Below are positions 12,961 through 21,882 of a DNA stretch of 64,000 nt, piece after piece. Numbering within the stretch: the first letter of the stretch is position 1; each line of letters starts with the position of its first letter. The notes beneath the pieces are model-generated. The model saw nothing but the letters and a program-made list of their open reading frames with translations, had not been told where the DNA came from and did no database searches. The position numbers and the translations under genes are program-made. The stretch covers positions 1-64,000 of the forward strand of contig NZ_LDRK01000015.1 of NCBI RefSeq assembly GCF_001477055.1, given 5' to 3'. The stretch comes from Leucobacter chromiiresistens. Its GTDB lineage: Bacteria; Actinomycetota; Actinomycetes; Actinomycetales; Microbacteriaceae.

Positions 12961-13027
12961 GTGCTGCGCGCTGCGCGCGAGCTGCGCGATGCGCCGCGCG
13001 CCGCGCCGCGCATCGCGCATTCTCGCG

Positions 13028-13092
13028 CAGGAGATCCGGCCTCGTGCAGGCACGATCGGCGGATCGCCACCTGCACGGGGCCGGATCTCCTG
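13028..13092. repeat. 65-bp near-perfect palindrome between serA and the FadR-type gene
   Basis: Arms of 23 bases (13028-13050 and 13070-13092) match with a single mismatch around a 19-base loop. The loop itself contains CGATC and GATCG, which can extend the hairpin. serA already has its own terminator 68 bases earlier and the next gene on the minus strand ends 31 bases further on. It may be a terminator for the minus-strand gene, a bidirectional barrier, or a REP/MITE-like element. Confidence 0.8.
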
Positions 13093-13122
13093 CTTGATGG
13101 GCGTGCGCGGGATCCCCCGCCG

Positions 13123-16804: not shown

Positions 16805-19063
16805 GTGGAGGGTCCTGAAATCAAGTTCGCCGAGGCCGTGCTCGACAATGGCACGTTCGGCAAGCGCACCATCCGATTCGAGACCGGTCGTCTCGCGCAG
16901 CAGGCGCAGGGCGCCGTCGCCGCGTACCTCGACGAGGAGACGATGCTCCTCTCGGCGACCAGCGCATCGAAGCAGCCGAAGGATCACTTCGACTTCTTCC
17001 CCCTGACCATCGACGTCGAGGAGCGCTCGTACGCCGCGGGCAAGATCCCCGGCTCGTTCTTCCGCCGCGAGGGCCGCCCGTCGACCGAGGCGATCCTCGT
17101 CTGCCGTCTGATCGACCGCCCCCTCCGCCCCTCCTTCGTGAGCGGCCTGCGGAACGAGGTCCAGGTCGTCATCACCGTCCTCTCGATCGCGCCCGGCGAG
17201 TTCTACGACGCCCTCGCGATCAACGCCGCCTCGGCGTCGACGCAGATCTCGGGCCTCCCGTTCTCCGGCCCGATCGCCGGCGTGCGCCTCGCGCTCATCG
17301 GCGACCAGTGGGTCGCCTTCCCGAATGCGGAGCAGCTGCAGGACGCGGTCTTCGACCTCGTCGTCGCCGGCCGCGTCGTCACCGACGCGCAGGGCAACGA
17401 GGACGTCGCGATCATGATGGTCGAGGCCGAGGCGACCGAGCACAGCTGGGAGCTGATCCGCGGCGGTGCGAAGAAGCCGAACGAGGCCGTCGTCGCCGAG
17501 GGGCTCGACGCCGCGAAGCCCTTCATCGCCCAGCTCTGCAAGGCGCAGTCGGAACTCGCCGCGCAGTCGGCGAAGGAGATCGCCGACTACCCCGTCTTCC
17601 TGCCCTACACCGACGAGGTCCTCGCGGCCGTCGACGCGCTCGCGCGCACCGAGCTCGCGCCGATCTACCAGATCGCCGACAAGCAGGAGCGCCAGAACGC
17701 CGATGACGCGCTGAAGGCGCGCGTGAAGGAGGGCATCGCCGCGCAGGTCGAGGCCGGCACCCTGCCCGAGTCCGCCATCGCGCAGGTCTCCGCCGCGTAC
17801 AAGACCGTGACGAAGGACATCGTGCGCACGCGCGTGCTCACCGAGGGCGTCCGCATGGACGGGCGCGGCACGAGCGACATCCGCGCGCTCGACGCCGAGG
17901 TCCAGGTCATCCCCCGCGTGCACGGCTCCGCGATCTTCCAGCGCGGCGAGACCCAGATCCTGGGCGTCACCACGCTGAACATGCTCAAGATGGAGCAGCA
18001 GATCGACTCGCTCTCCCCGGTGACGAGCAAGCGGTACCTGCACCACTACAACTTCCCGCCGTACTCGACCGGAGAGACCGGCCGCGTCGGCTCCCCGAAG
18101 CGCCGCGAGATCGGGCACGGCTTCCTGGCCGAGCGCGCCCTCGTTCCGGTGCTGCCGAGCCGCGAGGAGTTCCCCTACGCCATCCGCCAGGTGTCGGAGG
18201 CGCTCGGATCGAACGGCTCCACGTCGATGGGCTCGGTCTGCGCATCGACCCTGTCGCTGCTGAACGCGGGCGTGCCGCTGCGCGCACCCGTCGCGGGCAT
18301 CGCCATGGGCCTCGTCTCCGACGAGGTCGACGGGGAGACGCGGTACGCGGCGCTCACCGACATCCTGGGTGCTGAGGACGCGCTCGGCGACATGGACTTC
18401 AAGGTCGCCGGCACCGCCGACTTCATCACCGCGATCCAGCTCGACACGAAGCTCGACGGGCTCCCCGCCTCCGTGCTGAAGGGCGCGCTGACGCAGGCGC
18501 ACGAGGCCCGCCTCACGATCCTGGGCGTGCTGAACCAGGCCATCGACGTGCCCGACGAGATGGCCCCGACGGCGCCTCGCGTTCTCACGGTGACCATCCC
18601 GGTCGACAAGATCGGTGAGCTGATCGGCCCCAAGGGCAAGACGATCAACGGCATCCAGGATCAGACCGGCGCCGACATCTCGATCGACGACGACGGCACC
18701 GTCTACATCGGCGCGACCGACGGGCCGGCCGCTGAGGCCGCGCGTGCGCAGGTCAACGCGATCGCCAACCCGCAGAACCCCGAGGTCGGCGAGCAGTACC
18801 TCGGCACCGTCGTGAAGAACGCCGCGTTCGGCGCCTTCATCTCGCTGCTCCCGGGCAAGGACGGCCTGCTGCACATCTCCGAGGTGCGCAAGCTCGCCGG
18901 CGGCAAGCGGATCGAGAGCGTGGACGACGTGCTCTCCGTCGGTCAGAAGATCCTCGTGAAGATCACGAAGACCGACGACCGCGGCAAGCTCTCGCTCGAG
19001 CCCGTGATCGAGGAGCAGGCCGCTGAGGCGGCCGACGCTCCGGCGGCACCCGCAGCGGAGTAA
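16805..19063 (+). CDS. pnp: Polyribonucleotide nucleotidyltransferase (PNPase)
   Basis: PNPase degrades RNA phosphorolytically from the 3' end as a trimer. The 752 residues contain two RNase PH domains, the first with [20 protein letters not shown] and the second with [19 protein letters not shown], separated by a helical domain. A KH domain ([19 protein letters not shown]) and an S1 domain ([20 protein letters not shown]) follow. An AAGGAG site precedes the GTG start. The acidic, alanine-rich tail is common in actinobacterial forms. A terminator lies downstream. In related genomes the M16 peptidase usually follows directly, but here a DUF559 gene intervenes. Confidence 0.97.
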
Positions 19064-19090
19064 TCCGCGCAGCGCGGTGCGCCGCACCCG

Positions 19091-19123
19091 ACGCCCGCCG
19101 TCCCGCACCGGGGCGGCGGGCGT
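19091..19123 (+). terminator. Terminator after pnp
   Basis: ACGCCCGCCG and CGGCGGGCGT form a 10-bp perfect stem with an internal CCC/GGG extension, 27 bases after the pnp stop. Confidence 0.75.
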
Positions 19124-19124
19124 T

Positions 19125-19166
19125 GTGCGTTGGGCGTCGTGCGTTGGGCGTCGTGCGTTGGGCGGC
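19125..19166. repeat. Three tandem copies of a 14-bp repeat
   Basis: GTGCGTTGGGCGTC occurs at 19125-19138 and 19139-19152 exactly, and at 19153-19166 with one change near the end. It lies between the pnp terminator and the palindromic element that flanks the DUF559 gene. Confidence 0.9.
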
Positions 19167-19183
19167 GCGCACGCTCGTGGCGT

Positions 19184-19237
19184 GCGACAGGATGTGCGAG
19201 CATCAGCGCCCCGGGAGCGGACTTCCTGTCGCATCTC
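19184..19237 (+). repeat. Palindromic element, copy A, left of the DUF559 gene
   Basis: GCGACAGGA at the left and TCCTGTCGC at the right (ending at 19232) are inverted arms, followed by ATCTC. A related 54-base element, 39 of 54 bases identical and in the same orientation, lies on the other side of the DUF559 gene at 20333-20386. Together they look like direct copies of one small repeat family. Confidence 0.75.
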
Positions 19238-19314
19238 GGGAGCGCGCACGCGCCACGACGCCGGTCCGCTCGGGGTCCGGGCGGATGCGGGAAAAAGTGC
19301 AGCGGTTCACCGGT

Positions 19315-20241
19315 TCAGCGGGCGTTCCTCGCGGCGGTCGCCTGCGCGATGCGCGCGGTGAGGATCCGGATCAGCTCGGCCGGGTGACGCAGATCGTGCG
19401 CGGTCACCCGGATCACCGTCCACCCCGCGTCCTCCATCGCGCGTACTCGTGTCACGTCGACGCGGGCCTGCCGCAGCGCATCACCGCCCACGAAGTGGTG
19501 CGCGCCTTCGTACTCGATCGCGATCCGCAGATCAGGGGAGCCGAGGTCGGCGCGAAGCGTGCGCCCCCGCACCGGCACCGGGCACTGGATCACGGGCTCG
19601 GGGAGGCCGCCGTCGAGCAGTGCAAGGCGCAGTCTGCTCTCAGCGTGAGATTCCGCGCCGCACCGCACGAGCGGAAGCACCTCCGCTCTGAGCAGGCTCC
19701 CGTGGGTGCCCCGGAAGCGCCTGACGGCCGCAGCCAGCGCGGCGGGCGTCGCGGCGGGCGGGTCGTATCGCCCCGGACCGGACACGATCCAGTCGCCCGC
19801 GGCGAGGAGCTCCTCGCGCGTGGCGACCTGCGCGAGGAGGCACCAGGCGTCGACGACGCTCGGAAGCCACGGCGGTCGATCGGGAACGCGCTCGAGCGTT
19901 CCGGGCCGGAGCTGGTGGCCGGCGGTCTCCGGTCGCCGGAGCGGCCGCGACGGGCGGACCGCGCCCATCTCCAGCCTGCGATCATCGCGATCGCTCACGG
20001 GCATCCCGTGGAGCGCCGCCGCGGTGCGCCGGCTCCAGAACTGGCCGCGACGCATCCGCAACGCGAGGGCGACGACGCGGGGGTCGACGGCACCGGGCGC
20101 ACCGCGCCGCATGACCACTCCGTGGACGGGGCGCTCGACATCGGGCGAGTAGAGGCGCCAGCGAGGCGTTCCGGCTGAGAGGAGATCGCCGACGCGCGTG
20201 GGCGAGGCGTCGAGCAGGGGGAGCGGGGAGAGCGGACGCAT
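19315..20241 (-). CDS. DUF559 endonuclease-fold protein with AbiEi-like N-terminus
   Basis: The 308-residue protein ends in a DUF559 domain, related to the very-short-patch-repair endonuclease fold. Its PDLRIAIEYEGAHHF and MEDAGWTVIRVTAHDL segments hold the conserved acidic and aromatic positions. The N-terminal part (RVGDLLSAGTPRWRLYSPDV) resembles the winged-helix antitoxin-like domain seen in AbiEi-type proteins; this is a weaker call. Function is unknown and such genes are abundant in actinobacteria. It sits opposite to pnp and the M16 peptidase gene, which are usually adjacent, and is flanked by palindromic repeats, suggesting an inserted cassette. No partner toxin gene is present. Confidence 0.85.
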   Translation of the reverse strand: MRPLSPLPLLDASPTRVGDLLSAGTPRWRLYSPDVERPVHGVVMRRGAPGAVDPRVVALALRMRRGQFWSRRTAAALHGMPVSDRDDRRLEMGAVRPSRPLRRPETAGHQLRPGTLERVPDRPPWLPSVVDAWCLLAQVATREELLAAGDWIVSGPGRYDPPAATPAALAAAVRRFRGTHGSLLRAEVLPLVRCGAESHAESRLRLALLDGGLPEPVIQCPVPVRGRTLRADLGSPDLRIAIEYEGAHHFVGGDALRQARVDVTRVRAMEDAGWTVIRVTAHDLRHPAELIRILTARIAQATAARNAR

Positions 20242-20332
20242 CGCACCAGCATGGCGGTGCGGGCGTATTCCTGCAGACGCTATCCACAGGGGAGCGCTGG
20301 CGCATCGTCGTGGGCCCCGCCGCCTGAATCTC

Positions 20333-20386
20333 GCGACGGAAGGTACGCGCATCACGGCGCGATGCTCGGAGTTCTTGTCGCATCTC
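20333..20386 (+). repeat. Palindromic element, copy B, right of the DUF559 gene
   Basis: This copy shares CATCA-N13-GGA, TTC and TGTCGCATCTC at identical spacing with copy A at 19184-19237. The inverted arms are less perfect here (GCGAC/GTCGC). It lies about 90 bases upstream of the DUF559 start codon and about 90 bases before the M16 peptidase gene. Confidence 0.75.
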
Positions 20387-20463
20387 CGTCTGGGCGAACA
20401 GGCGGCGAACAGGTGGCGGGCCGCGCGGCCCGCCCACCCCGCGAGCTCCGAGGCGCGAGGCTC

Positions 20464-20475: not shown

Positions 20476-21882
20476 ATGCGCGAACCGATAGCCCTGCCCC
20501 TCGACCAGGCCGAACTGACCGCTGATCTGGGCGGCGGGCTCGTGAGGCGCACCGTGCACCCCAGCGGCCTGCGCGTGCTCACCGAGCGCATGCCGGGGGC
20601 GCGGAGCGCATCGATCGGGTTCTGGATCGGCGTGGGCTCGCGCGATGAGCAGGCGGAGCGCCCCGACGCCCCCGGCAGCCTCGGGTCCACCCACTTCCTC
20701 GAGCACCTGCTGTTCAAGGGCACCCCGACGCGCGACGCGTTCTCGATCGCGACCGAGTTCGACCGCATCGGCGCCGAGCACAACGCCCTCACCGCGAAGG
20801 AGTACACCTGCTACCACGCGAAGGTGCGCGATGCCGACCTCGAGGTCGCGGTCGCGATGCTGAGCGACATGGTCGCCAACTCGGTGCTCGACGCCGATGA
20901 GTTCGAGACGGAGCGCGGCGTCATCCTCGAGGAGCTGGCGATGGCCGCCGACGATCTCGCCGACGTCGCGAATGAGCGCTTCTTCGAGGCCGTGCTCGGA
21001 GATCACCCGCTCGGGCGGCCGATCGGCGGCTGGCCGGAGACGATCACGGAGGCCCGCAGGGCCGATGTCGACCGCCACTACCGCGATCGCTACGACCCGT
21101 CGACGCTGGTGGTGACCGCGGCGGGGGCGGTGGATCACGATCGGCTCGTGGCCCAGGTGCTCGCCGCGCTGAACGCCTCGCCGGAGGAGCGCTGGCACAC
21201 CGACGGCAGCGCCGCCCCCGTGCGGCGGGAGCAGGTGCTCGACGCGGCGCCGGGGGGCGCGCAGGCGCCCGGGGCGGACTCGCTCGACTCGGCGCTCCAT
21301 CGGGAGCCGCGCGTGCAGATCACCGAGCGCCCCTCCGAGCAGGTCAACCTGCTGATCGGCACGCACGGCTTCAGCGCCGGCGATCCGCGCCGCTTCGCGT
21401 ACGGGATCATGAACTCGGTGCTCGGCGGCGGCATGTCGAGCCGACTGTTCCAGGAGATCCGCGAGAAGCGGGGCCTCGCGTACACGGCGTACTCCTTCGG
21501 AGCGAGCTACTCCGACTCCGGTGTCTTCGCGATGTACGCCGGCACCGCCCCCGAGAAGGCGGCGGACGTCGTCGAGCTCAGCCGGGTGGAGCTGCGCAGA
21601 CTCGCGGACACGGAGATCTCGGGCGAGGAGCTCGAACGGGCGCTGGGTCAGATCGCGGGGTCCACGGCGCTCGCACTCGAGGACTCGGACACCCGGATGG
21701 GCCGCCTCGCCCGGGCGGAGCTCGGCAGCGGCGAGCTCTTCGACCTCGACGCCTCGCTCGAGCGCTTCGCCGCGGTGACGCCGGAGCACATCCACGAGGT
21801 GGCGGCGACGCTCGCCGCTCGCCCGCTCACGGTGGTCGCGGTGGGGGAGGCCTCGCGATCCTCGCTCGAATCGAGCGACTGA
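20476..21882 (+). CDS. M16-family zinc peptidase
   Basis: The 468-residue protein is a processing-peptidase/insulinase-type metallopeptidase. The inverted zinc motif HFLEH is at residues 73-77 (H73, E76, H77), and the third ligand is expected in the downstream ERGVILEELAMAADD helix. A C-terminal M16C-like domain (GIMNSVLGGGMSSRLFQEIREKRGLAY) completes the clam-shell fold. The substrate is unknown; the family degrades or trims small peptides. The gene lies just before dapB, an arrangement common in actinobacteria, but each has its own -10 element. Confidence 0.93.
   Translation: MREPIALPLDQAELTADLGGGLVRRTVHPSGLRVLTERMPGARSASIGFWIGVGSRDEQAERPDAPGSLGSTHFLEHLLFKGTPTRDAFSIATEFDRIGAEHNALTAKEYTCYHAKVRDADLEVAVAMLSDMVANSVLDADEFETERGVILEELAMAADDLADVANERFFEAVLGDHPLGRPIGGWPETITEARRADVDRHYRDRYDPSTLVVTAAGAVDHDRLVAQVLAALNASPEERWHTDGSAAPVRREQVLDAAPGGAQAPGADSLDSALHREPRVQITERPSEQVNLLIGTHGFSAGDPRRFAYGIMNSVLGGGMSSRLFQEIREKRGLAYTAYSFGASYSDSGVFAMYAGTAPEKAADVVELSRVELRRLADTEISGEELERALGQIAGSTALALEDSDTRMGRLARAELGSGELFDLDASLERFAAVTPEHIHEVAATLAARPLTVVAVGEASRSSLESSD

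Follow-up and report, generated by a model that had tools for sequence, protein, structure and literature searches.

A predicted Vsr-like nuclease gene bracketed by palindromes in Leucobacter and other Actinomycetota

The locus in Leucobacter chromiiresistens

A single nuclease-like gene of Leucobacter chromiiresistens, enclosed by two palindromic elements, is the subject of this study. It lies in a 64,000-nt stretch of DNA (NZ_LDRK01000015.1; hereafter, the window) that forms the main part of the 65,535-base contig C57, in an assembly of 2.79 Mb and 194 contigs designated here as G000. The gene stands alone between both palindromes, and its neighbours outside them are pnp and an M16 peptidase gene. 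A first-pass annotation, made without database searches, had proposed two 54-bp copies at 19184–19237 and 20333–20386 in one orientation, identical at 39 of 54 positions, with CATCA-N13-GGA equally spaced in both and a single minus-strand gene between them. Our analysis bears out each of these points, the gene being an intact 308-codon open reading frame (ORF). Alignment with relatives gives a slightly longer full element of 59 bp, which consists of two 23-bp arms and a 13-bp spacer.

Judged from the window alone, the repeat pair is unusual to a modest degree and makes thin evidence. An ungapped scan of 54-mer pairs over 63 regions of 1421 bp ranks the focal pair best (39 identities; next 37; median 34), and the focal flanks have a local-alignment score of 16.5, a value also attained by 14 of 400 pairs drawn at random from the window. 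The sequence TGTCGCATCTC, with at most one mismatch, is found in the window at the two copies only, against a chance expectation of 2.3; the CATCA-N13-GGA pattern was taken from the copies themselves, so that its zero count in shuffles is circular. The folding energies of both copies are unremarkable. We nevertheless take the pair as real because both copies are kept in the related genome G016, because related solo copies exist and because the arrangement recurs in other Actinomycetota.

Bracketing across Actinomycetota

The recurrence was assessed in the best 80 of 573 confirmed matches (loci L155–L234), which carry the motif [ILV]A[ILV]EY[ED]Gx[HYG]H and come from, among others, Leucobacter, Microbacterium, Curtobacterium, Leifsonia, Agrococcus, Agromyces, Pseudoclavibacter, Arthrobacter, Oerskovia, Promicromonospora, Jiangella and Brevibacterium. 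Conservation of the motif is built into this set, and the query alignment was drawn partly from loci already known to have palindromes. After four loci with flanks shorter than 250 bp were dropped, the left and right 400-bp flanks are alike (score of at least 18) in 52 of the remaining 76 loci, compared with 0 of 69 controls placed 2 kb away. Geometry-matched shifts of 1.8 or 2.6 kb reach this score in 1/71, 0/73, 4/77 and 1/76 cases, and mismatched left–right pairs do so in 1.5% of 1140, same-site relatives included. As many as 10 loci share one site and so lack independence; counted by site group, 25 of 36 contain at least one bracketed locus.

The palindromes themselves cluster at the gene. 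Across 78 loci, there are 31 strong palindromes within 250 bp on one side of the gene and 27 on the other, compared with 0–3 per 250-bp bin past 750 bp, and 24 of 80 loci have one on both sides within 700 bp. They are approximately 60–70 bp long, stand upstream of these genes as often as downstream, and vary in sequence between gene subtypes while matching within a locus. Flank similarity follows protein identity more closely than in any of 1000 permutations, but loci at one site have neighbour genes in common, which confounds this comparison; co-evolution of protein and palindrome beyond same-site pairs is suggested. The protein alignment comprises 75 loci and the window, with L175 and four of the 80 loci with odd ORF lengths omitted.

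At some loci (L175, L188, L191, L193 and L209), several palindromes or similar repeats stand in tandem on at least one side of the gene, resembling clusters of repetitive extragenic palindromic (REP) sequences. A separate motif, TGTGGA/TCCACA, often in the form TGTGGATAA, resembles the DnaA-box consensus and occurs within 250 bp upstream of the gene in 56 of 75 loci, with approximately 4 expected; on the sense strand within 200 bp, it is present in 29 of 78 loci and in 2 of 72 controls. It may tie expression to replication, or may be a promoter element.

Dispersed copies and the cognate gene

Palindromes of these types are also found away from the gene. The subtype with GGGGTCAC-type arms is the most informative: arm matches number 31 + 32 in the Leucobacter genome G013 and 38 + 38 in G001, corresponding to approximately 32 and 38 palindromes, and any such match is present in 12 of 54 Leucobacter genomes. 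For this one subtype, abundance depends on the gene. The cognate protein is found at E ≤ 1e-75 in nine genomes, all nine of which have at least one arm match, compared with 3 of the 45 other genomes, with 1–3 matches each (Fisher 4e-8). Counting only genomes with at least three arm matches gives 8/9 versus 1/45, and relaxing the protein cut-off to 1e-60 weakens the association (9/12 versus 3/42; 7.5e-6). G000 itself encodes a paralogue on contig C166 with its own palindrome pair, which is of the GGGGTCAC type and different from the window type. A third, distant paralogue (L045, contig C130) has a weak palindrome-like stretch, TCGAGAGCGC..GCGCTCTCGA, with CTGTGGA upstream, in the interval 1925–2110.

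In three genomes, a Promicromonospora palindrome motif is matched 40 + 41, 16 + 18 and 9 + 7 times, and nine further genomes have no match; an Oerskovia palindrome has 3 + 4 matches, of which four belong to its cassette, and is absent from eleven other genomes. Twenty G013 solo copies, a chosen subset of approximately 30, were placed relative to their neighbours with simple ORF-based calls: the flanking genes are convergent for 9 copies, tandem for 11 and divergent for none, a preference for gene 3′ ends that is also a trait of REP repeats.

The window-type element was traced with a covariance model built from six copies with a structure set by hand. Counting both strands, the model has 16 matches in G016 and 10 in G000, and matches at E ≤ 0.05 occur in 11 of 54 Leucobacter genomes, the weakest of which look spurious. 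The closest protein relative, in G002 (55% identical), has the element past its stop codon, the other side being lost at a contig end. Three window-type solo copies occupy shared positions in G000 and G016. The first-pass annotation had named wide occurrence of the element without DUF559 genes as a refutation of its proposal; solo copies away from nuclease genes do occur, and REP-like repeats behave in just this way. At one further site in G016 (L136:2408–3288), two window-type palindromes surround an unrelated 148-codon ORF for a putative membrane protein, and the same site in G040 (L141:2094–2162) has a single palindrome, which looks like a conversion from pair to solo with non-nuclease cargo.

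Architecture of the palindromes

Alignment of 24 copies of the GGGGTCAC type (the 20 G013 solo copies and four cassette copies) reveals strongly conserved 28-bp arms and a hypervariable spacer, whose length is 13 nt throughout this set and in all but one of 31 listed G013 copies. Pairing between the arms holds in 95.1% of cells, with 20 two-sided changes, whereas slid controls pair in 32–44%. None of 500 shuffles reaches the observed pairing, number of two-sided changes or covariation score, and two coarser measures are reached by 42 and 80 of 500; kinship among the copies can inflate such counts of paired changes, which are in any case expected of a dimer site and of a hairpin alike. The geometry of two 23–28-bp arms around a 13-bp spacer agrees with the published operator of the AbiEi-family protein Rv2827c: the part of PMC7319586 consulted gives inverted repeats of 23 bp for this family, with a gap of 3 bp for AbiEi and of 13 bp within each Rv2827c pair.

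Two other readings of the palindromes were set aside. As structured RNA, the six window-type copies show no covariation beyond that of shuffles and have unremarkable folding energies, although the 24-copy set of the other subtype does covary. As transcription terminators, their preference for gene 3′ ends would fit, but their sequence conservation and gene specificity exceed those of a terminator.

Predicted structure of the protein

The window protein scores below the curated cut-offs of both Pfam families to which it could be assigned, MTES_1575 (17.6 bits; cut-off 38.2) and DUF559 (14.6 bits; cut-off 20.6). Among 20 aligned relatives, 16 match MTES_1575 (PF18741) and 7 match DUF559 (PF04480) at E ≤ 0.01. 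With the Pfam matches of the window protein below threshold, the predicted fold is the more telling guide to the nuclease assignment. A structure predicted from 76 aligned sequences has a mean predicted local distance difference test score (pLDDT) of 94.9 and a predicted template modelling score (pTM) of 0.90.

In this model, the N-terminal part resembles AbiEi (6y8q; residues 3–193, VIA-align Z 10.3, root-mean-square deviation 5.7, 176 residues aligned) and Rv2827c (1zel; Z 7.5), and AbiEi 6y8q is the sole Foldseek match reaching E ≤ 0.001 (E 7e-4). The C-terminal domain resembles the homing endonuclease I-Bth0305I (3r3p; Z 12.0), a putative Neisseria endonuclease (Z 10.8) and Vsr (1cw0; Z 10.1); Foldseek gives E 0.1–0.15 and probabilities of 0.97–0.99 for I-Bth0305I and Vsr, and the nuclease part also matches three mitoribosome entries (Z 9.2–10.0). 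The protein is thus predicted to join an AbiEi-type DNA-binding part to a Vsr/I-Bth0305I-type nuclease. The initial description of a DUF559/Vsr-like protein with an AbiEi-like N terminus is backed in both halves by the predicted fold, and the Pfam scores fall short of it.

Residues E201, D232, E243 and H249, which are putatively catalytic, are kept in 76, 75, 76 and 76 of the 76 sequences, respectively, and D262 is kept in 75; E243 and H249 belong to the search motif, and their conservation is partly built in. The N-terminal half outpaces the nuclease half in divergence in 105 of 108 same-site pairs and in 92% of all 2850 pairs. The PADLOC models for AbiEi and PDC-S37 match a few of the 20 relatives weakly, as does an NCBIfam anti-phage model for one of them.

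Empty sites and exchanged blocks

The pnp site was compared across 49 retrieved loci from 48 genomes. The first-pass annotation had described pnp and the M16 gene as normal neighbours in actinobacteria; a same-strand M16 match adjoins pnp in 36 of the 49 loci, and the short flanks retrieved may account for some of the misses. A relative of the nuclease gene (tblastn E ≤ 1e-3) is present beside pnp in G000 and G016 only. In G016, both elements are conserved around a damaged gene copy with internal deletions. In G040, of which the pnp end is 96% and the M16 protein 92% identical, the two coding matches are 163 bp apart, and the interval contains neither the gene nor either element, making it an empty site. 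The first-pass annotation had anticipated an empty site ending at one copy of the element; G040 lacks both copies here, and the one-copy state was seen only elsewhere, with the non-nuclease cargo described above. Comparison of G000 with G040 shows no visible target-site duplication at the junction of the window cassette.

A second cassette, shared by G013 and G001, is absent with its neighbours intact from G012, G015, G019, G045 and G060; 1325 bp in G013 correspond to 14 bp in G012. Solo palindromes have empty sites of their own, as two of three compared in G013 are absent from G012 (153 versus 26 bp, and 104 versus 2 bp), one of these two being present in G001; for the third, s1, the comparison was not clean. 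At solo site s2, the element is replaced in G060 by different DNA of about the same length.

Whole blocks also differ between otherwise matching sites. Curtobacterium locus L161 and loci L169 and L189 have flanks that are mostly 87–100% identical per 100-bp interval, whereas from the left to the right palindrome identity is mostly 40–78%, with 56% for the protein; the whole palindrome–gene–palindrome block appears to have been exchanged. Between the same neighbours, the block is inverted in 23 of 110 locus pairs with both flanks matched, these pairs deriving from a handful of loci.

Features of the window

The coordinates of the focal features are listed in Table 1. Just past pnp, positions 19065–19154 contain a strong GC-rich hairpin (z −3.9) and GCGTTGGGCGTCGT-like repeats at 14-bp spacing, which together probably make up the pnp terminator, slightly enlarged by tandem expansion. 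A further solo palindrome at 13027–13093, with arms GCAGGAGATCCGGCCTCGTGCAGG and CCTGCACGGGGCCGGATCTCCTGC, is similar in size to the cassette palindromes and pairs at 19 of 23 positions in a 23-13-23 scan, the best value of the whole window; its 15-base core is absent from all 384 loci retrieved.

Table 1 Features of the nuclease locus, in window coordinates
Feature	Position	Strand	Remarks
Palindromic element A	19179..19237		23-bp arm, 13-bp spacer, 23-bp arm; 16/23 positions pair; kept in G016, absent from G040
Palindromic element B	20328..20386		Orientation as A; 11/23 positions pair; 54-bp core unchanged in G016; absent from G040
Gene for AbiEi-like / Vsr-like nuclease (DUF559 / MTES_1575 type), 308 aa	19315..20241	-	Stop codon included
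N-terminal AbiEi-type part, approximately residues 1–195	19657..20241	-	Predicted DNA-binding; VIA-align, Foldseek
C-terminal nuclease domain, residues 196–303	19333..19656	-	Putative catalytic residues kept; VIA-align and conservation
TGTGGATAG, DnaA-box-like motif	20280..20288	-	Upstream of nuclease gene, within cassette
Inserted segment relative to G040 empty site	19146..20391		Approximate; edges uncertain by tens of bases
pnp	16805..19063	+	Left neighbour, outside element
M16 peptidase gene	20476..21882	+	Right neighbour, outside element

Interpretation of the cassette

The explanation that we favour, and regard as probable, is a mobile unit resembling the REPtrons formed by REP-associated tyrosine transposases (RAYTs), in which an unrelated nuclease binds, cuts and spreads its palindromes and itself. 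The locus would be a small mobile unit in which one nuclease gene is combined with the palindrome that its product recognizes, present twice. The AbiEi-type N-terminal part would bind the palindrome, with one protomer per arm of approximately 23 bp across the near-fixed 13-bp spacer, and the C-terminal nuclease of the Vsr/EDxHD type would nick or cut at or near it. Repair of the break from another copy would homogenize the arms; where repair copies the palindrome alone, solo, REP-like repeats would arise, and where both flanking palindromes are engaged, the whole palindrome–gene–palindrome block could be copied. Multiplication of the palindromes would then be limited to genomes that have, or until recently had, the cognate nuclease, and cassettes would appear, invert, be swapped as blocks and decay. 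The suggestion in the first-pass annotation of a small mobile cassette, or of a nuclease associated with REP-like palindromes, is supported by the empty sites, the dispersed copies that track the gene and the bracketing in other genera.

Several observations weigh against this explanation. Left–right similarity does not reach the cut in 24 of 76 loci, copy B in the window is a poor palindrome with 11 of 23 positions paired in the 23-13-23 scheme, and beyond same-site pairs palindrome similarity is only weakly related to protein identity (rho 0.14 for the N-terminal and 0.00 for the C-terminal part), in a test where the strongest hairpin at some Curtobacterium loci is an upstream terminator-like repeat and not the cognate palindrome. 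The tie between gene and dispersed copies has exceptions: G012 has three palindrome matches and no cognate gene, G068 has the cognate gene and one arm match, and G011, G058 and G002, with proteins 47–55% identical (two of them partial matches), do not have that palindrome. A reversed control pattern also gives one match in each of three genomes, which places single matches near chance. G000 and G016 still share orthologous solo palindromes, so movement is slow. Many cassettes have constant neighbours across species, a pattern of vertical inheritance with rare moves. The junctions that were read show neither a target-site duplication nor an exact boundary, and inserted segments extend tens of bases past the palindromes.

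The main rival, which we consider unlikely, is regulatory. The palindromes would be AbiEi-type operators, perhaps also insulators or terminators, that autoregulate a stand-alone nuclease with, for example, an anti-phage or DNA-repair role; solo copies would be its regulon, with no cutting or spreading. Autoregulation of AbiEi-family antitoxins through inverted repeats of such geometry, described in the consulted part of PMC7319586, is consistent with this, as are the palindromes that stand upstream as often as downstream, the terminator-like placement of the 20 G013 solo copies in convergent and tandem intervals, and the weak PADLOC and NCBIfam matches. An operator, however, need not recur downstream of its gene, enter empty sites together with it or number 30–40 dispersed copies, and the 20 copies examined avoid divergent promoters. 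The putative active site is also kept, a conservation built in part into the search.

Under a passenger model, which we regard as improbable, the palindromes would be elements resembling miniature inverted-repeat transposable elements (MITEs) that are moved by another transposase, and the nuclease gene would be cargo caught between two of them. The G016 block around the unrelated membrane-protein ORF, with its single-palindrome counterpart in G040, would fit such a model, and solo elements are common. Passengers, however, would not be expected to show what is seen in many genera, where palindromes that differ entirely in sequence enclose members of one gene family at most of the loci sampled. 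With regard to the terminal inverted repeats and target duplication of an insertion sequence or a MITE, the palindromes lie near the ends of the inserted segments, and no target duplication was visible at the junctions read. Very improbable, finally, is that these are ordinary genes, vertically inherited or recombining at a few sites, whose palindromes are kept alike by gene conversion with no mobility: same-site groups of up to 10 loci and the inverted blocks, an outcome of recombination between flanking repeats, would fit, but close relatives have empty sites at two cassette sites and the dispersed copies have empty sites of their own.

Relation to known systems

The mobile unit that we favour shares with REPtrons a small nuclease gene bordered by cognate palindromes (here in 52 of 76 loci, with 0–4 of 69–77 in controls) and dispersed palindromes whose abundance follows the gene (PMC8266576, part consulted), here in 9/9 versus 3/45 genomes. 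The differences lie in the enzyme and in the repeats. The RAYT enzymes belong to the HuH tyrosine nucleases and are relatives of IS200/IS605, and GTAG marks the REPs that accompany them (PMC8266576, part consulted). Here, the two halves of the model match AbiEi and Vsr/I-Bth0305I and not the HuH/Y1 fold, and GTAG is present within 10–12 nt outside the palindrome foot in 0 of 20 G013 solo copies and 0 of 2 window copies, and in 1 of 27 window-type model matches shown with 12-nt flanks. The palindromes are also longer, with 23–28-bp arms and a 13-bp spacer, and the presence of the cassette is polymorphic, with empty sites, whereas the consulted part of PMC8266576 states that evidence for the mobility of tnpA-REP is lacking.

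Free-standing homing endonuclease genes of the EDxHD/I-Bth0305I kind offer the closest nuclease fold (Z 12.0) and a similar alternation of occupied and empty sites. They differ in that no intron or intein was seen at our loci, the DNA-binding part is AbiEi-like, and the mobile block itself contains the recognition palindromes, one at each side, which can also spread without the gene. With the AbiEi-family antitoxins AbiEi and Rv2827c, the protein shares its N-terminal fold, and the palindromes share the Rv2827c repeat geometry of 23 bp with a 13-bp gap (PMC7319586, part consulted); here, however, the repeats flank both sides of the gene and occur genome-wide. Unlike in the AbiE type IV toxin–antitoxin system, no AbiEii nucleotidyltransferase toxin gene lies between the window palindromes, and a nuclease domain follows the AbiEi-like part instead. 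MTES_1575 has been named as a Vsr-like domain in HEPN fusion proteins; the part of PMC3710099 consulted has nothing on palindromes or cassettes, and the window protein is below both cut-offs. Among open-access papers, we recognized no description of such a nuclease–palindrome arrangement, subscription papers and most preprints being outside the scope of the search.

Implications

The system works like a REPtron or a homing gene, yet it is not a RAYT, and it has a fair chance of meriting a separate class. More specifically, it could be a class of bacterial selfish elements, not met with in the papers searched, in which a fusion of an AbiEi-type operator-binding domain with a Vsr/EDxHD nuclease uses its own operator as a homing site, the gene riding between two copies; we put this somewhat short of an even chance. 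If it is true, operator-like palindromes would multiply across the chromosome, and the binding half and the palindrome would change together, making a nuclease system capable of rapid re-targeting across Actinomycetota.

To our knowledge, no second enzyme family besides the HuH RAYTs has been associated with REP repeats. If the mobile-unit explanation holds, partnerships between repeats and nucleases would have arisen more than once, as an unrelated nuclease has its own palindromes in Actinomycetota, and a function would be at hand for a common gene family that is usually labelled ‘DUF559’ or ‘AbiEi domain’. The family also offers many natural pairs of protein and DNA site for learning how an AbiEi-type domain reads DNA, and the spread of REP-like repeats becomes testable in a new system with polymorphic cassettes.

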